From Paenibacillus sp. SYP-B4298 (GTDB lineage Bacteria; Bacillota; Bacilli; Paenibacillales; Paenibacillaceae): a stretch of 64,000 bases of DNA. The translations under genes and the position numbers were made by a program. Shown here piece by piece: positions 25,705 through 46,668 of this stretch. Position 1 is the stretch's first letter, and every line of letters begins with the position of its first letter. The notes below the pieces were generated by a model. The model saw only the letters and a program-made list of their open reading frames with translations, was not told the origin of the DNA and made no database searches. The DNA lies in assembly GCF_027627475.1 (NCBI RefSeq), contig NZ_CP115484.1, forward strand, positions 6,118,501 through 6,182,500, written 5' to 3'.

Positions 25705-27484
25705 GTAAGCCTCCTCCTTCACCACCCGGATGCATCGGGAACACCAGTGTGATGGCGCTCCATTCCGGTTCTATATATTGAATGGACATCTGAAAATCGT
25801 CTCCATAGATCAGCTTCAGCCGCGTGGATACATTGTATAAGCCGATGCCGCTCCCCATGTTGTCGGTCTTGTCTGCACCGTATTCGTGAGGCTGACAAGC
25901 CAGCCGCTGCTCCAGCTCGGCAATCGTCTGACTGGATAGGGGAGCGCCGTTGTTTTTTACAGTCAGGATCAGCTTGTTATCCCTCGTCTTGATCTGGATG
26001 ACGACGCGGCCTCCCTTTCGGGCGAAACCATGCTTGTACGCATTCTCGATGATGGGTTGCAGAATCAGCCTGGGGACGGTCGCATCCAGCAGCTTCGGAT
26101 CAACATCCATCTCGTAAGTAGTGGGGTGCCGCATGGCAAATCGCATCAATTCTATATATTGCTTGGCCGATTCGATCTCCTGACCAAGCGTGACGAACTC
26201 GCCGTGACGGGTGAAGCTGGAGCGCAAGAGAGCGGCTAGCGCGGCGAGCAGCTTCGCATTATCCTCATCCTTCTGGAGCAGCAGGCGCATTCGGATTGAA
26301 GTGAGCACATTGAAGAGGAAATGGGGATGAAGCTGCGCCTGCAGCATGGCAATCTCCGCTCTTCGTTTCAGCTCTTGCTCGGTTCTGAACTCCTGCATCG
26401 TCTGTTCGATACGGTCCAGCATATGGTCGAAGGAACGCCCGAGACTTCCGACTTCGTCATTGCCCCTGATGTTGGAGCGAATGGTCAGATTGCCAGCTTC
26501 GATCTGACGGGCAGCCTTGCCCAGTGTCTGGATCGGCCGGGTGAAGCGGCGAAGCAGATAAGTCAGCGCCATCAGGAAGACGATTGCAAACACACTCTGA
26601 ATGAGCAGTCCTGACCGGGATAAGCCATTAAGTCGCCCGGTCAATTGCTCATAGGGCGCCAGACTTACCAAAGACCAATCGCCGAACGCTAACGGCAAGG
26701 AGATGAATAACTGGTTCGCGTCGCCAACACGAAGAATAGCTGTGGAACGCAAATCTGCGATGGGCAGGATGGATTCAATTGACGAACCGATCTGCTGTGG
26801 ATCACGGTTAGAGAGGATCGTGTGATCCGCTCCAAGCACGAAGACGTCCTCCTCCAGCTCCTGAAAACGATCTCGAATCGCCGCTTCTGTTCTGCTGACG
26901 ATCAAGTATGCGAAGGGTGGCTTGCTGTTGCTCTCCCGCAATGCCCGGGCGGCGATAAACACATACGGCAGATCAGCCCGCTCTGAGGCGAGATAGTTAG
27001 CCTCGCCACCCACAAATAACGTATCGTAGCCTGACAATTGGTCAAGACGCGCGAACCAGTCGCGCGTCTTGAACTCGACTGGATTGAAGTCGTAGAACGA
27101 ATAATCCGAGTATGCTCTGCCATCATTATCAAGCAGCGTAATCCGCAGATCGCGCGTCTCCCCGGCCACTTGCTCCAGTCGGGTTGTCAACTGGCGGCCT
27201 GCCACCGGATTCGTCTTGGCCTCCTCCAGCAGGTTTTTGATCTCGGGGTCAAAATGGACGAAGTTGGCTACGGACACCATCTCCGTCAATATCGCGTCAA
27301 TCTGCGATTGCACCATAAGTAGAGATTGCTTGGCTTTGTCCAGTGTATGTTCACGAATAATCAGCTTCGAATAATGGTTGGTGCTCAAGATCATGCCGAT
27401 TGTCGGCAGCACCAGGCAAGCGATCGAGGTGATGATTAGTTTTTGGCGGAAGGTTAGCCGCTTGAATGGCAGTTCGATACGCAT
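25697..27484 (-). CDS. YesM-type sensor histidine kinase
   Basis: A 595-residue membrane kinase. TM1 is at residues 16-36, then a large extracellular Cache-like sensor domain (to about 290), TM2 (SGLLIQSVFAIVFLMALTYL) and HAMP (RPIQTLGKAARQIEAGNLT). The His_kinase motif LHPHFLFNVLTSIR carries the phosphorylated His, and the ATPase shows IENAYKHGF and GSGIGLYN. It is first in a two-gene operon with the YesN-type regulator. The extracellular domain presumably detects a glucuronide or oligouronide, or its binding protein. The ATG at 27484 has GAGGGAGGAG upstream. Confidence 0.92.
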   Translation of the reverse strand: MRIELPFKRLTFRQKLIITSIACLVLPTIGMILSTNHYSKLIIREHTLDKAKQSLLMVQSQIDAILTEMVSVANFVHFDPEIKNLLEEAKTNPVAGRQLTTRLEQVAGETRDLRITLLDNDGRAYSDYSFYDFNPVEFKTRDWFARLDQLSGYDTLFVGGEANYLASERADLPYVFIAARALRESNSKPPFAYLIVSRTEAAIRDRFQELEEDVFVLGADHTILSNRDPQQIGSSIESILPIADLRSTAILRVGDANQLFISLPLAFGDWSLVSLAPYEQLTGRLNGLSRSGLLIQSVFAIVFLMALTYLLRRFTRPIQTLGKAARQIEAGNLTIRSNIRGNDEVGSLGRSFDHMLDRIEQTMQEFRTEQELKRRAEIAMLQAQLHPHFLFNVLTSIRMRLLLQKDEDNAKLLAALAALLRSSFTRHGEFVTLGQEIESAKQYIELMRFAMRHPTTYEMDVDPKLLDATVPRLILQPIIENAYKHGFARKGGRVVIQIKTRDNKLILTVKNNGAPLSSQTIAELEQRLACQPHEYGADKTDNMGSGIGLYNVSTRLKLIYGDDFQMSIQYIEPEWSAITLVFPMHPGGEGGGLHV

Positions 27485-40134: not shown

Positions 40135-40845
40135 TCAGCTCATATCTGCTTCCTGTATGTTTCTTAGCGTAAACACAGCAGCCAGGATACCAACAATGGC
40201 TAATCCTAAGGGAAACAGAAAGATCTGGTTTAACGAGAAGCCGTTCGTATTGCCATTCATCAGCCCGCCAATGATGATCGCTGCGACGATCGTTTCGACT
40301 GTGGAATACTTGCGCATGCCGAAGTAGAGTGGAATCATGACGATACAGGCCGCGCACAATGCATTCCATGCCAGCTTTGCCAGCAGTGTCCACACGATGT
40401 CCATGGTTAGCTGCTCCGGGATAAAGTGAAAGTACTGCTCGGCAATGACCAGCAGCGTGCCCATAATCAGGCCGGTCAGCAATATCATATTGAAGGTCCA
40501 CAGGAAGACCAGCAGCAGCTTGGCCGTCATCATGCGGTAGCGGCTGACCGGGTAGGTGAACATCAGCGTCATGCTCTTGTTGCGAAATTCGGCGATGACG
40601 ATGCGAGAGAGCAGGGCTGCGCCGTAGATGGTAAACGTAATATTCGCAAATGTTAATATGATGGAAAAGGCTGTGCTGTAGCCATCAAATTCCGGGAGGG
40701 GCTCCCCCGGGTTGTCGCCGAACAGTTGCCGATCAAAATAAAACAAGGAGAACAAGCCGATCAGCACGATCCAGGCAATCCATACCCCTCGCGAAATAAG
40801 GGGCAGCTTGTGCTTGCGCAGCTCCAACCGCATGAGATGTAGCAT
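40135..40845 (-). CDS. ABC transporter permease (bacitracin/lantibiotic type)
   Basis: A 236-residue membrane protein with six hydrophobic segments, resembling ABC-2 permeases of the BcrB/LanFEG type. It has a short charged N-terminus (LRLELRKHKLPL-like), IVIAEFRNKSMTLMFTYPVSR before TM3, and no extracytoplasmic domain of BceB size. Start ATG lies 3 bp after the ATPase gene's end, with AAGGAGGAG inside the ATPase 3' end. It is last gene of the RR-HK-ATPase-permease cluster. The likely role is export of, or defence against, a peptide antibiotic; the substrate is not visible. Confidence 0.85.
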   Translation of the reverse strand: MLHLMRLELRKHKLPLISRGVWIAWIVLIGLFSLFYFDRQLFGDNPGEPLPEFDGYSTAFSIILTFANITFTIYGAALLSRIVIAEFRNKSMTLMFTYPVSRYRMMTAKLLLVFLWTFNMILLTGLIMGTLLVIAEQYFHFIPEQLTMDIVWTLLAKLAWNALCAACIVMIPLYFGMRKYSTVETIVAAIIIGGLMNGNTNGFSLNQIFLFPLGLAIVGILAAVFTLRNIQEADMS

Positions 40846-40848
40846 CGG

Positions 40849-41760
40849 TTATTCTCCTCCTTGAATCAACTGAACAAAATATTGCTCCAGCGATTGGTTT
40901 TTTCTATGGATGGCGTGGATCGGCACCTCATGCATGATCAGTTGCTTAGACAGCTCAGTTTGTGGAATCATCGTCTCATAGATGCGTATACAGTCAGCGG
41001 TCACCCGGAAATTGAACAGGTTCAGATCATGCTCCAGCACATAGGCTGCCTTGGCCGGATCAGGCGTATGCAGCTCGATATATTCGGTATGCGCGCCGCG
41101 AATCTCGTTCATCGGCACCTCCTTCACCAGCCGCCCCTTATTCATGACACAGATCGTGTCGGCAATCTGCTCGATTTCCCCGAGGATATGCGAGGAGACG
41201 ATAAGCGTCATCCCGTATTCCTTGCATAATCGATACAGCAGCTCTCGCAGCTCACGGATGCCCATCGGGTCCAGTCCGTTAATCGGTTCATCGAGAAATA
41301 GCAGCTCCGGGCGGGTTACGATGGCGCGGGCGATGCCCAGTCTCTGCTTCATGCCGAGCGAAAATTCCTTGACCAGCCGACCCTGAGCATCCTGCAGACG
41401 GACAAGCTCCAACGCCTCGTTGATCGCATTTTTATTGTAGTAGCCCATATACTCGCAATGCAGCTCCAGATTGGCTGTTGCGGTCAGCTTCTCGTAGAAT
41501 ACCGGATATTCGATGATGCTGCCGATACGTTTGAGATATTCGACCGAGCCTGGCTGCAGCCGTTCTCCGAAGAGCTCAATCTCGCCGGCTGTCGGCCTAA
41601 CCAGTGAGGTAAGCATCCGCATCAGCGTCGTCTTGCCAGCGCCGTTAGGTCCCAGCAGGCCGTATATTTCTCCTTGCCGGACACGAATATTCATCTGCGA
41701 TACGATCTCACGCCCCTCCATGACCTTCGTGAGCGCGGAGGTTTTTAGTAGAATGCTCAA
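40849..41760 (-). CDS. ABC transporter ATP-binding protein (bacitracin/lantibiotic type)
   Basis: A 303-residue ATPase: Walker A GPNGAGKTT, Q-loop at EYPVFYEKLTA, signature FSLGMKQRLGIAR (a BcrA-like variant of LSGGQ), Walker B LLFLDEPINGLDP and H-loop SSHIL. The C-terminal 90 residues form the extra domain common in BcrA/NatA-type subunits. The start is TTG at 41760 with GAGGAG nine bases upstream. It has its own promoter 37-42 bp before the start codon, with three direct repeats that look like a response-regulator site. Confidence 0.93.
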   Translation of the reverse strand: MSILLKTSALTKVMEGREIVSQMNIRVRQGEIYGLLGPNGAGKTTLMRMLTSLVRPTAGEIELFGERLQPGSVEYLKRIGSIIEYPVFYEKLTATANLELHCEYMGYYNKNAINEALELVRLQDAQGRLVKEFSLGMKQRLGIARAIVTRPELLFLDEPINGLDPMGIRELRELLYRLCKEYGMTLIVSSHILGEIEQIADTICVMNKGRLVKEVPMNEIRGAHTEYIELHTPDPAKAAYVLEHDLNLFNFRVTADCIRIYETMIPQTELSKQLIMHEVPIHAIHRKNQSLEQYFVQLIQGGE

Positions 41761-41865: not shown

Positions 41866-42804
41866 TCAGGACGGAACACGCTTCAGCTTCACACGAAAGA
41901 CGGTCTCCTCATAAGGAAGGCTGTGCAGCTCAATCTGCCCCTCCATCATCTCAACGAGCCGTTTGGTGATGGTCAGGCCCAGCCCGCTTCCTTGATAAGC
42001 CATATTGCGTGAATCCTCCAATGTATACATCCTCTCAAATACAAGCTCCTGGTGGGGCTTGGCGATGCCCTTGCCGCGGTCCTTGACCTCAATGAAGACA
42101 TCGTTGCCCTCTGCCCGCAATGCAAGACCTACCATTTTCCCTTCGTACCCATACCGGATGGCATTGGACAGAAGGTTATTCAATATGCGTTCCAGCGCTT
42201 CCTCATTGCCTAGCGCATAGACGGGCAGCTCCGGGAGATCGATCTGCACGTCTAGCTGCTGTGCTGCAAGGGTTTCGTAGAAGGCGAGGATGCTCCGCTC
42301 GCACACGTCATTCATCATCATGCGCGAGAGGGGCAGCTCCTTGTCCGCCGACTCCAGCACAGCCAGGTCGAAAAATCGGTTCATCAGCGCCAGCACCTCC
42401 TGCGCCTTGGCCTGCACCTTGTCCAGCATATAGCGTTGCTCCTCAGGGGGCATCGCTATATGCTGGCGCAAGGTCTCCGTGTACCCGACAACCACCGTCA
42501 GCGGTGTCTTCAAATCATGTGAGATGTTCGACAGCATCCGCTTGATCGCCAACTGGGAACGGGCGTAGTCGGCACGAGTCTCCTCGCTGCGCGCAAGCAG
42601 GTGGTTGATGCTGCCCAGCAGCTTGCGCAGAGCCGGATCAGCCGTGAGCAGTTGCAGCTTCTCTGCGTGCTGTGGGGAGACGGCGAGCTTGTCGAGGCGG
42701 GAAGCCATGATGCGCAGCAAGGAGGCTTGCTTGCGCGCGGCGACGAATTGCATCGCATTGAGCGCAGCCAGCAGCAGGATGGCGGCGAGCAGCGCAGTAA
42801 TCAT
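41866..42804 (-). CDS. Sensor histidine kinase (short sensor, VanS/BcrS-like)
   Basis: A 312-residue kinase. One N-terminal transmembrane segment (ITALLAAILLLAALNAMQF) leaves no extracellular domain. A linker is followed by the phospho-His in NISHDLKTPLTVVVGY, then LNNLLSNAIRYG and GSGLGLTITKRLVE. Kinases with such minimal sensors in this context usually depend on the partner ABC transporter or sense within the membrane. The ATG at 42804 overlaps the regulator stop codon by 4 bp (ATGA). It is the second gene of the regulatory pair; a gap of about 105 bp with the ABC promoter follows. Confidence 0.92.
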   Translation of the reverse strand: MITALLAAILLLAALNAMQFVAARKQASLLRIMASRLDKLAVSPQHAEKLQLLTADPALRKLLGSINHLLARSEETRADYARSQLAIKRMLSNISHDLKTPLTVVVGYTETLRQHIAMPPEEQRYMLDKVQAKAQEVLALMNRFFDLAVLESADKELPLSRMMMNDVCERSILAFYETLAAQQLDVQIDLPELPVYALGNEEALERILNNLLSNAIRYGYEGKMVGLALRAEGNDVFIEVKDRGKGIAKPHQELVFERMYTLEDSRNMAYQGSGLGLTITKRLVEMMEGQIELHSLPYEETVFRVKLKRVPS

Positions 42805-43523
42805 GACTGGAATTCCCCCAGCTTGTAGCCGATTCCCCAAAGCGTGCGGATATATTGGGGATGAGAGGGGTCATCCTCGATCTTCTCCCGCAGGCGCCGC
42901 ATGTGGACATTGATGACATTCTCATCGCCATAGTAGTTGTCTTCCCAGATGCTCTGATAGATCTGTGCTTTGGTGAAGACGCGCTTAGGGTGGCTGGCGA
43001 ACAGCTTCAATAGCTGAAATTCCTTCGCCGTCAGCCTGATTTCCTGCCCATTCTTGGTCACGGTGAAATTCTCCGGATGAATGGCTAATTCATGAATGTG
43101 TATTGTTGCAGGAGCATCAGCGATGGCCGCCTGGCTTGGCCTGGAGTAGCTGGTGGCTCGCCGCAGCGCTGCCTTGACACGGGCGGTCAGCTCGATCATC
43201 GAGAATGGCTTGGCGATATAGTCGTCAGCGCCAAAGCCGAGGCCGAGTGCTTTGTCCACCTCGCTGCCCTTGGCGGACAGGATCAGTACCGGCACGGTGC
43301 TGCGCTCGCGAATGCGCTGCAGCAGCTCCATTCCACCCAGACGGGGTAGCATGATATCGAGCAGCACCAGATCATAAGAGGCGGCGGCGAACAAGGCGGC
43401 TGCTTCAGCCCCGTCCAATGCCTGTGTAATGTGAAATCCTTCATTTGTCAGATAGCGTCTGACCATCTCGCTGATCTCCGCATCATCTTCAACGAGCAGC
43501 AGCCGGGGAGCAGTCTGTTCCAT
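42801..43523 (-). CDS. OmpR family response regulator
   Basis: A 240-residue regulator. The receiver domain has LLLVEDDAE, phospho-Asp in YDLVLLDIMLPRLGG and Lys in YIAKPFSMIEL. A winged-helix DNA-binding domain follows (IRLTAKEFQLLKLFASHPKRVFTKAQIYQSIW, VINVHMRRLREKIEDDP). It partners the kinase overlapping its 3' end. The direct repeats in front of the downstream ABC ATPase gene are its probable site. The ATG at 43523 with GAAGG upstream is preferred; ATGs at 43535 and 43613 are possible. Confidence 0.92.
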   Translation of the reverse strand: MEQTAPRLLLVEDDAEISEMVRRYLTNEGFHITQALDGAEAAALFAAASYDLVLLDIMLPRLGGMELLQRIRERSTVPVLILSAKGSEVDKALGLGFGADDYIAKPFSMIELTARVKAALRRATSYSRPSQAAIADAPATIHIHELAIHPENFTVTKNGQEIRLTAKEFQLLKLFASHPKRVFTKAQIYQSIWEDNYYGDENVINVHMRRLREKIEDDPSHPQYIRTLWGIGYKLGEFQS

Positions 43524-43790
43524 CAGTGCCTTCATCCTTCCAGTTTCGTATGATCTATGACTATTATGGGAGAGCGGGCCCTGTTTGTACATATCTAAGA
43601 AATGATAAGTCATGCTCGTGTAGCCTTATTTTCTTCATGATGGGAGAAACCATTGGGGGCTTGAATTGGAAGTAAAATTGAGCTAGAAGATAAAAAAACA
43701 AGAGAGTATACGGGGAATACCGAGTAAATGCACGAAAATGCGACAAAATCCTATGATATTAGAGCTATTCTAGTAAAATCAAACTACACA

Positions 43791-43813
43791 TATAGGCCTA
43801 TAGAGAGTATACT
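43791..43813 (+). promoter_or_regulatory. Candidate cas5 promoter with palindrome
   Basis: The perfect palindrome TATAGGCCTATA (43791-43802) lies immediately upstream of a -10-like TATACT (43808-43813), where a -35/-10 spacer would be. The region 43614-43886 is clearly more AT-rich than its neighbours and otherwise empty. Confidence 0.4.
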
Positions 43814-43886
43814 AAAAGTGTGTATCCAAATTTGGAAAAGGGAGGGAGATTGATTGCGTTTTGTATAAGTAAAAGGAGGAGAATTG

Positions 43887-44552
43887 ATGGGATATGGAAT
43901 TCGACTGCTCGTCTGGGGAAGCTATGCTTGCTTTGCCCGTCCAGACAAGCAGGATGAGAAAGAGAGCTATGAAGTGATGCCGCCTTGTGCTGCAAGAGGC
44001 GTCTTGGAATCGATTCATTGGAAGCCTGCAATCCGATGGATTGTGGATCGAATTGAAGTGATTAATGAAATTCGCCTGGAGCGTGCAGAGCGACTCGAGC
44101 TAGGGACAGCGGAGGCAGCTACCCAGTTGAAGGAGCCGATGAGCTGCAAGCGTCCATTGCTGGCGCCGGTACTGACCGAGGAACGTGAGAAGACGAGCCT
44201 CCTGCTGCGCGATGTGAAGTATGTGATCCACGCGCACTTCGAGATGACGGCTCGTGCGGGAGAGCATGATCATCCAGAGAAGCACTATAATATCTTTTTG
44301 CGTCGTGCCCGCAAGAAGCAATGCTTCTATCATCCGTATCTGGGAAGCAGGGAGTTCCCGGCTTCTTATGTGTTGCTGGAGGATGATGAGGAGGCTCCGA
44401 TCTCGTACTATAGACGAAAGCCGGAGCAGCATCTGGGCTCCCTGCTATGGGATCTGGATTTCAAGCAGCACATGAAGCCGATGTATTTCCAGGCGGTGCT
44501 GAGGAACGGAGCCATCAACATTCCTGATCTGTTACAGAGAACTAGCAAATAG
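43887..44552 (+). CDS. cas5: Solitary type I-C CRISPR protein Cas5 (Cas5d)
   Basis: A 221-residue intact protein with clear Cas5d similarity throughout. It has YGIRLLVWGSYACFARP, MPPCAARGVLESIHWKPAIR, LLRDVKYVIHAHFEM, EKHYNIFLRRARKKQ, YLGSREFPASYVLLE and PMYFQAVLRNGAINIP. In type I-C systems Cas5d cuts the pre-crRNA repeat hairpin and stays in Cascade. Of the triad described for Bacillus halodurans (Tyr46, Lys116, His117), the Lys-His pair is present (132-133). The Tyr position carries His44, as I recall also for the Desulfovibrio protein. ATG 43887 follows AAGGAGGA. No cas3, cas8c, cas7, cas4, cas1, cas2 or repeat array is nearby: the next genes are an RR/HK-ABC cluster and unrelated small proteins. 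Confidence 0.9.
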   Translation: MGYGIRLLVWGSYACFARPDKQDEKESYEVMPPCAARGVLESIHWKPAIRWIVDRIEVINEIRLERAERLELGTAEAATQLKEPMSCKRPLLAPVLTEEREKTSLLLRDVKYVIHAHFEMTARAGEHDHPEKHYNIFLRRARKKQCFYHPYLGSREFPASYVLLEDDEEAPISYYRRKPEQHLGSLLWDLDFKQHMKPMYFQAVLRNGAINIPDLLQRTSK

Positions 44553-44653: not shown

Positions 44654-44947
44654 TTAATCGTTGTCCTTCTTCAGCTTCTCGCCAATGAGAGCCAGCAGGC
44701 CGATCATCGGTATCGCCAGCACACTGCCTAATCCGAGCGAGGCGCTGATAATCCCGATGCCCATCCCGCGGAAGCCGCTGATAAACATGCTGACAACGAA
44801 CATCATAATGCTCAGAGAAAGTCCGGCTCCAGCAGGCATAAACAGGCGATACAGCGGATAAGGGGCGAATTTATACATAAAATGGGCAATCGTAAGCCAG
44901 ATGATGGCTGTAATTGCGGATATAATCCAGAAGAACAAGCTGTCCAT
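44654..44947 (-). CDS. Small membrane protein (YesK-like?)
   Basis: A 97-residue protein with three transmembrane segments (LFFWIISAITAIIWLTIAHF, LSLSIMMFVVSMFISGF, LGSVLAIPMIGLLALIG) and a short charged tail EKLKKDND. The general look recalls the YesK-like family of Bacilli, but I am not certain. The start has AAGGGGG upstream. No operon partner is apparent and no function can be assigned. Confidence 0.65.
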   Translation of the reverse strand: MDSLFFWIISAITAIIWLTIAHFMYKFAPYPLYRLFMPAGAGLSLSIMMFVVSMFISGFRGMGIGIISASLGLGSVLAIPMIGLLALIGEKLKKDND

Positions 44948-45783: not shown

Positions 45784-46668
45784 ATGCGACGTTCATTGCT
45801 GGAGGATCAGAGGGCGCAGAGAAGGTCAGGCAGCAAGCTGCTGCTATCGCTGCTCGCTGTGCTGGCGGCGGGAGTGACGCTGGCGGGGGTGCAGGGAATG
45901 ATGAGGCAGGGCGAGGCAGGCTCGCCTCTGCTGCATGATGTGAAGACGGTGTGGCAATGGGTGGTGCCAGAGGCGCAGGGTGGCTCGGGGGATGTGGCCT
46001 GGTCGTTTCGTTGGGATGCCAGGCAGCCAGTTACGGGCGAACAGGCGGAGCGGCTGGCGTTGCTGCTGGATGCGAAGGAGGCAGATGATGCGGAGGGTGG
46101 TTCCAACTTGCAGCGGGTGTGGCGGAGCGACATGCAGCGCGAGGAGGGTACCGGCGGCGGTCGTCTGGCGATCTGGCATCACCTGGATGCGCAGCCGCAG
46201 GAGACGGGCAGCCGGGTAGCCGAAGCGGAGGATGGCAACGGGGAGGAGGTCGTGAGGCAGGCAGCAGAGGATGCCATGCAGCACAGCGAGGAGCCGACAG
46301 GCGGACTGGTTGTCCTGCTGGAGAGCATGGAGGGGGCAGACTATGAGGAGGTTGCGCCTTGGCTTGCCCGAATCGAGCAGTCGCTTGAACATAGCGGATT
46401 GCAAGCTGCGCCCAGCTTCTCCTTTCGCGCGGCGACAGGCCCGGAGGCGGCAGAACGGCTGGCGGAGGCAGCAGGCGCGACGCTGCTGGAGCGCTATAGC
46501 GACCGGAGTACAGTGAGCGATACCTACTACAGCAGCAAGCTAAGGCTGAGTGCGCAGAGCGGGCAGCATAAGGTGAACCTGCAGTTGGCACTGCTCCTGG
46601 GGTCAACGGAAGGCGAGTATCGGCTGACAGGAGGCGTCCCGCTCATTACGGGGGAATACTTGCGATGA
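45784..46668 (+). CDS. ywmB: YwmB-like protein (DUF1779/TATA-box-binding-like fold)
   Basis: A 294-residue protein with an N-terminal membrane anchor (LLLSLLAVLAAGVTLAGVQG) and an extracytoplasmic domain. The C-terminal half matches YwmB: ERYSDRSTVSDTYYSSKL, HKVNLQLALLL and the final PLITGEYLR. YwmB is a conserved Firmicute protein of unknown role with a TATA-box-binding-protein-like fold. The central part is enriched in Glu and Gly and longer than in Bacillus. ATG 45784 has AAGGAGG upstream. It is divergent from the Gly/Tyr-rich protein gene. Confidence 0.75.
   Translation: MRRSLLEDQRAQRRSGSKLLLSLLAVLAAGVTLAGVQGMMRQGEAGSPLLHDVKTVWQWVVPEAQGGSGDVAWSFRWDARQPVTGEQAERLALLLDAKEADDAEGGSNLQRVWRSDMQREEGTGGGRLAIWHHLDAQPQETGSRVAEAEDGNGEEVVRQAAEDAMQHSEEPTGGLVVLLESMEGADYEEVAPWLARIEQSLEHSGLQAAPSFSFRAATGPEAAERLAEAAGATLLERYSDRSTVSDTYYSSKLRLSAQSGQHKVNLQLALLLGSTEGEYRLTGGVPLITGEYLR

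Follow-up and report, generated by a model that had tools for sequence, protein, structure and literature searches.

The closest described relatives of the protein analyzed here are the Cas5c subunits of type I-C Cascade complexes, such as those of D. vulgaris (7kha and 8dej), 3vzi and that of M. succiniciproducens (3kg4). Cas5c combines two jobs, cutting of pre-crRNA and anchoring of Cascade. In PMC3727216, the catalytic positions of Cas5c are given as a Tyr or His on helix 1 and a Lys-His pair on helix 2, and the Cas5c proteins of M. succiniciproducens and X. oryzae, both active as nucleases, are likewise described as having His at the first of these positions. According to PMC7684278, Cas5c and the last Cas7 clamp the 5' handle through conserved contacts. 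Solitary Cas proteins encoded outside CRISPR loci are easily mistaken for debris, and a limited search of the open-licence literature, with broader searches by title or abstract opening, retrieved no publication about solitary or orphan cas5 genes.

Here, we describe an orphan cas5c gene, denoted cas5o, of Paenibacillus sp. SYP-B4298. The gene lies in a 64-kb stretch of DNA, hereafter the window, that spans positions 6118501-6182500 of the single 6.26 Mb contig of this genome (G000). The cas5o product shares with the Cas5c of I-C Cascade the fold, the length, the palm motifs and the His44/Lys132/His133 set. Unlike the genes for these subunits, cas5o has no cas3, cas8c or cas7 neighbors and is preceded by a conserved upstream block of its own; its product has lost near-invariant residues of the thumb segment and belongs to a separate clade.

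An intact cas5c gene without CRISPR-Cas neighbors

The cas5o open reading frame runs from the ATG at 43887 to the TAG at 44550-44552 and is free of frameshifts. Its product scored 106.3 bits against PF09704 (cut-off 23), 153.8 bits against TIGR01876 (cut-off 85; residues 9-214) and 202.6 bits against the PADLOC Cas5c profile, and the Cas5 chain of the D. vulgaris I-C Cascade (7kha_A) matched residues 3-214 with E = 4.3e-60. These matches bear out the end-to-end Cas5d (Cas5c) similarity without a frameshift that a preliminary description of this DNA had noted. With the AlphaFold model (mean pLDDT 82, pTM 0.80; residues 71-101 below 50) as the query, the top Foldseek matches included the I-C Cascade Cas5 chains 8dej_A (E = 2.5e-23), 7kha_A, 8g9s_N and 8g9t_N, and 3kg4 was matched as well (rmsd 1.8). 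The matches also included 4f3m, recognizable as BhCas5c from PMC3727216, and 3vzh and 4r0j, for which the name Cas5c does not appear in the output. Given the full-length score above the TIGR01876 cut-off, the Cas5c fold and the presence of the catalytic positions, the cas5o product is a member of the Cas5c family.

The gene stands alone in its neighborhood, as the preliminary description had stated (Table 1). A tblastn search of the 64-kb window with the seven Cas proteins of the I-C system of the same genome (E ≤ 1e-4) detected Cas5 only and no other Cas protein, and the cas3-cas5-cas8c-cas7 partners are equally absent from the 20-kb orthologous loci of two other species, P. pinihumi (L004) and P. 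roseus (L005). There is no CRISPR array near cas5o: the window contains one isolated repeat-like match, at 27059, and regularly spaced repeats were not found among the 20 largest of the 59 repeat families at 33887-54552. No array was seen beside the orphan in L004 and L005 either. No array-type repeat adjoins cas5o, and an Rfam scan of the window for a substrate RNA yielded only a purine riboswitch (RF00167, 55513-55614, plus strand, 75.3 bits), the sole match above the gathering score.

Table 1. Coordinates of cas5o, its upstream elements and the genes discussed with it (window positions unless a locus is named)
Feature	Position	Strand	Remarks
Orphan cas5c (cas5o)	43887..44552	+	intact ORF, 221 aa plus stop
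Conserved upstream block	43773..43845	+	73 bp; alignment of three species
Promoter-like site TACACA - 17 nt - TATACT	43785..43813	+	9/12 matches; consensus match only
Palindrome TATAGGCCTATA	43791..43802	.	between the two hexamers
Ribosome binding site GGAGG	43875..43879	+	7 nt before the ATG
YesK-like small protein gene	44654..44947	-	PF14150, 28.0 bits (cut-off 25.2); convergent, adjoins cas5o in 3/3 species
Response regulator gene	42801..43613	-	divergent from cas5o; context only
Histidine kinase gene	41866-42840		conserved beside cas5o in P. pinihumi
ABC transporter genes	40135-41760		conserved beside cas5o in P. pinihumi
I-C cas5 of the same genome	L084:12853-13500		intact, in complete operon

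The absence of partners is a property of the locus and not of the genome. The preliminary description had proposed a genome-wide search for type I-C genes and arrays, and this search revealed a complete operon, cas3-cas5-cas8c-cas7-cas4-cas1-cas2, about 94 kb upstream of cas5o. The operon is flanked by two arrays with different repeats, and further I-C-type arrays are located at about 0.89, 0.97, 1.07, 1.31, 2.95 and 3.27 Mb; the genome carries several repeat variants. The possibility that cas5o is the displaced subunit of an I-C system devoid of cas5, which the same description had raised against its own proposal, was rejected because this operon has an intact cas5 of its own; with a complete effector set present elsewhere, the orphan is surplus to it. 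The Cas1 encoded in the operon (L084:16982-17806; 274 aa), the sole Cas1 match in the genome, lacks about 60 profile positions (82-140), and adaptation may therefore be disabled. Between the upstream array and cas3 lies a DUF6602 gene (L084:9344-10309). By eye, the start of its product looks similar to that of a NucC-like nuclease (264.6 bits) encoded in a III-D operon near 3.29 Mb (L170:6316-16142; contig C1, about 3.285-3.295 Mb) together with Cas10, RAMP proteins, Csx19 and Cas6; the distance from this operon to an I-C-type array is about 16 kb. Another Cas6 match, a partial one (29.1 bits, in a frame of 68 aa), was detected on the same contig at 4204569-4204712 (L172), with no I-C-type array in the surrounding 12 kb.

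Orthologs, upstream conservation and phylogeny

A collection of 84,980 species, each represented by a single genome, was scanned for relatives of cas5o, and the best 80 of the 496 related loci were analyzed. At least one cas partner is present in 78 of these, and the two loci without partners are those of P. pinihumi and P. roseus, where the orthologs are 73% and 68% identical to cas5o, respectively. Within the family, 32 of 394 genomes contain strong matches, at 35 places; among the 33 places examined (G345 and G368 were left out), cas3 and cas8c adjoin the gene in 31, and the two solitary cases are cas5o itself and its P. pinihumi ortholog (G003). Downstream of the orphan, all three species have first the convergent YesK-like gene and next zwf and prfC. 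The two-component and ABC transporter genes on the other side are shared by the window genome and P. pinihumi, two of the three species; the response regulator, kinase and transporter genes have no match in the P. roseus stretch. In the zwf-side stretch of the other five members of the genus, zwf was seen, with no orphan or YesK-like match at E = 1e-4, a threshold that a diverged YesK-like gene could escape. We found no evidence that the YesK-like gene belongs to the function of cas5o.

The gene shows signs of purifying selection. The dN/dS values for the three species pairs are 0.134, 0.139 and 0.192, which are rough estimates because synonymous sites are near saturation in both pairs that include the window genome (pS 0.63 and 0.66). 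The corresponding values are 0.017-0.031 for zwf and prfC, 0.109 for the response regulator and 0.192 for the kinase (one pair each), 0.273 for the YesK-like gene (one computable pair), and 0.374, 0.299 and 0.089 for the gene at 45784-46668. Frequent inactivation in close relatives, which the preliminary description had named as evidence against a kept gene, was not observed: both orthologs that were looked at are intact.

The block upstream of cas5o shares 85% identity with its counterpart in P. pinihumi and likewise with that in P. roseus, and these two counterparts share 96% (63, 63 and 71 of 74 columns), compared to 22-41% in the stretches before it and 44, 45 and 69% in the stretch after it. 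Its core pattern, with up to three mismatches allowed, occurs once in the source genome, once in P. pinihumi and not at all in the other five genomes of the genus. The possible promoter with a palindrome suggested in the preliminary description falls within this block. Both hexamers of the promoter-like site are identical across the three species, and three such sites were found in the stretch against 1.8 expected from shuffles. The palindrome TATAGGCCTATA, located in the spacer of this site, could be an operator; its counterparts in the two relatives, TATAGACCTATA and TATAGACCTATT, are imperfect, so that a perfect palindrome is not conserved. The ribosome binding site that had been called is present, and GGAGGAGA at this site is identical in the three species. 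The block might be a regulatory site. Folding of the leader RNA yielded no significant structure (z-scores 0.11, -0.30 and -0.38). Within the gene, at window positions 43917-43970 (codons 11-28), 11 of the 12 informative codons are identical in the three species (permutation P = 0.066, not significant), and this run could be an RNA element. Because two related species have retained the gene in the same position and with a comparable promoter, cas5o probably encodes a functional stand-alone protein and not a remnant; selection, intactness and the conserved promoter-like block are thus consistent with the original description of a solitary gene that is apparently kept.

In a 120-row Cas5 tree, an analysis that the preliminary description had called for, the two solitary relatives and cas5o form one clade, corresponding to a shared chromosomal place (support 100/100, in a bootstrap that was not fully settled). 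The stem of this clade (0.82) is among the longest inner branches of the tree. Placing the orphans with a 12-row Paenibacillaceae I-C clade (L009, L012, L013 and others) costs 0.9 log units in the AU test (p = 0.48), making this clade a possible source of cas5o. The Cas5c proteins of this clade are 52-55% identical to the cas5o product and are encoded in cas3-cas5-cas8c-cas7 modules, with cas4-cas1-cas2 present in some and absent in others of the stretches examined. The I-C Cas5 encoded in the same genome as cas5o belongs to the same family and is 48-52% identical to the orphans; it differs in belonging to a complete operon between two arrays and in its position elsewhere in the tree. Placing the orphans with the 13-row clade of this cas5 costs 28.7 log units (p = 0.080) and was not formally rejected.

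Both carrier genomes that could be searched, the source genome and that of P. pinihumi, encode complete I-C effector modules with their own Cas5. In P. pinihumi, there are two such modules, both including a cas5, and the assembly contains no match to Cas1. The two modules (L134 and L136) are located on one contig (G003:C8), and I-C-type repeats are found on other contigs; nearly all of the repeats listed for this species share one stem sequence. I-C-type repeats, counted within two mismatches, number 163 in the source genome and 64 in P. pinihumi. The counts for genus members without the orphan are 47 (G001), 0 (G002), 215 (G004), 107 (G005) and 164 (G006). Scattered arrays were considered as a correlate of the orphan and rejected, given that I-C-type repeats are abundant in four of these five genomes; arrays as such, therefore, do not explain cas5o. 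Among 183 spacers from ten loci of the source genome and P. pinihumi (part of the arrays in the latter), none convincingly matched the cas5o locus, the matching pieces being 11-17 nt long with a best E of 0.008.

Catalytic residues and the thumb segment

Arg37, His44, His117, Lys132, His133, Arg139 and Arg140 are unchanged in all three orphans, which thus possess the catalytic positions of Cas5c, His44, Lys132 and His133. The preliminary description was right that the Lys132-His133 pair of the nuclease site is kept. It was also right that His occupies position 44, but the notion that this residue is a special replacement of Tyr was rejected: His is the usual residue, present in 87 of 97 partner-linked Cas5c rows and, according to PMC3727216, in active nucleases.

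For the analysis of conservation, five divergent tree rows (203-240 aa) and a spurious frame (L055_8896) were removed and identical rows were merged, leaving 97 canonical partner-linked rows. In these rows, 95 columns are conserved at 85% or more, and 14 of these are changed in all three orphans. The changed columns cluster within residues 59-102 (8 of 12, vs 6 of 83 elsewhere; Fisher p = 9.5e-6, for a boundary picked after the data were seen). The clustering persists at the 90% threshold (p = 8.6e-5) and at the 95% threshold (4 of 7 vs 3 of 57; p = 0.0017). Four columns of this segment, 64, 70, 101 and 102 (Phe, Asn, Gln and Arg), are kept in 95, 97, 95 and 97 of the 97 canonical rows, respectively, and are changed in all three orphans; these residues may be needed for Cascade assembly. 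In the model, residues 59-102 correspond to a hairpin insertion, with strands 63-69 and 102-120 and with low confidence at 71-101. The segment fits both the hairpin containing inserted helices that PMC3727216 describes in some Cas5c proteins and the thumb of Cascade Cas5c as described in PMC7684278.

Divergence alone is no proof of exit from Cascade because some canonical proteins have likewise changed at numerous near-invariant positions. Of the 64 columns with 95% conservation, 14, 10 and 10 show departures in the three orphans, and 15 and 9 in the partner-linked canonical rows L091 and L134. Within residues 59-102, L091 and L134 account for two departures and one, respectively, compared to four, five and five in the orphans.

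Possible functions of cas5o and related genes in phage and plasmid records

Taken together, the selection on cas5o, its synteny, the conservation upstream and the changes specific to one segment argue that this crRNA-processing nuclease has been kept for a function separate from Cascade. We propose that cas5o is a vertically kept, stand-alone Cas5c, with a conserved promoter of its own that probably drives its transcription. The protein retains the palm fold of Cas5c and the site for metal-independent RNase action (His44, Lys132 and His133), and has lost hairpin or thumb residues that are near-invariant in the Cas5c of complete systems. Most likely, it has ceased to form the foot of a Cascade. 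It would act in trans, as a free endonuclease or binder of hairpin RNA, on type I-C repeat hairpins in the pre-crRNA of scattered arrays or in solitary repeat-like RNAs, and the crRNA pool might thereby be tuned. To this reading, a separately regulated Cas5c outside Cascade assembly that cuts or binds repeat-like RNA hairpins in trans, we assign a tentative probability of about 0.42. Repeat hairpins are the most likely substrate; they are abundant in both searched carriers, yet common in most relatives without the orphan. If this reading holds, cas5o would be a natural separation of the two Cas5c jobs.

Action in trans on an array and cutting of a cellular RNA hairpin were the two roles suggested in the preliminary description. 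The strongest competing reading, which is also the more novel one, is that cas5o has left CRISPR immunity altogether and, in one lineage of Paenibacillaceae, operates beside the CRISPR systems as a domesticated, independently regulated hairpin endoribonuclease recruited to a cellular RNA hairpin outside CRISPR, such as its own leader or an mRNA, and regulating host genes. The conserved block with its promoter-like site, the synteny with housekeeping genes, the long stem branch followed by constraint and the combination of an altered thumb segment with an intact active site would all fit, and the identical-codon run at the start of the gene (11 of 12, not significant at P = 0.066) could be an RNA element of this kind. 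We nevertheless consider domestication rather doubtful, given that the leader lacks significant RNA structure, no candidate target RNA was identified and both searched carriers also have I-C-type repeats. Should it prove correct, cas5o would possibly be a Cas-derived RNase in host gene regulation. It is unlikely that cas5o is instead a spare subunit, an alternative to the resident Cas5 that would take its place in the I-C Cascade when array families with other repeats are processed. The several repeat variants in a genome whose complete I-C operon has one cas5, along with the conserved palm and catalytic residues, are compatible with such an exchange; however, none of the three orphans retains Asn70, Gln101 or Arg102, the Cas5 of the I-C operon in the same genome is just 48-52% identical, and P. 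pinihumi has the orphan even though its listed repeats are almost uniform in the stem.

PMC10651486 describes RNA anti-CRISPRs (Racrs) that mimic repeats, including one for type I-C that protects a phage. A free Cas5c could, then, bind or cut solitary phage repeat RNAs and so spare Cascade, and a protein unable to join Cascade would be suited to act as a decoy; we regard such a guard as quite improbable. Least probable of all is that cas5o survives as the remnant of a vanished I-C locus or as a fossil under no selection. The partners are indeed absent beside cas5o, and the internal gap in cas1 of the source genome and the lack of a cas1 match in P. pinihumi suggest that CRISPR loci may decay in this group. 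Three intact copies, dN/dS of 0.13-0.19 and an upstream block that is conserved despite near-saturated synonymous sites speak against decay, which we reject as very unlikely. Our preferred reading remains a stand-alone Cas5c acting on repeat-like hairpins.

Cas5c-like genes were also matched in phage and plasmid records. Among phages, there is one unannotated 9-kb record labeled as a bacteriophage (MT836695.1:3575-4216), with 41.9% identity. Matches were found in 53 plasmid records; the 20 listed are 34-49% identical, 17 of them annotated as I-C Cas5 and three without annotation. Two loci were identified in IMG/VR. In one (L168), cas8c and cas7 lie beside cas5; in the other (L169:6001-6639; about 42-43% identity), no I-C cas3 match was found in the 6 kb before the Cas5c-like gene, and the contig ends 545 bases after it. 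A separate observation concerns the gap between cas3 and cas5 in I-C modules. In four of eight loci (L009:9538, L011:9654, L012:9487 and L013:9457), this gap contains a single repeat-like element, GTGGATTGAAA (within two changes), which in L009, L012 and L013 is followed by a similar tract ending in TCTTNTNAAAATGACACTT. This element and tract could be a CreR/CreA-like guide.
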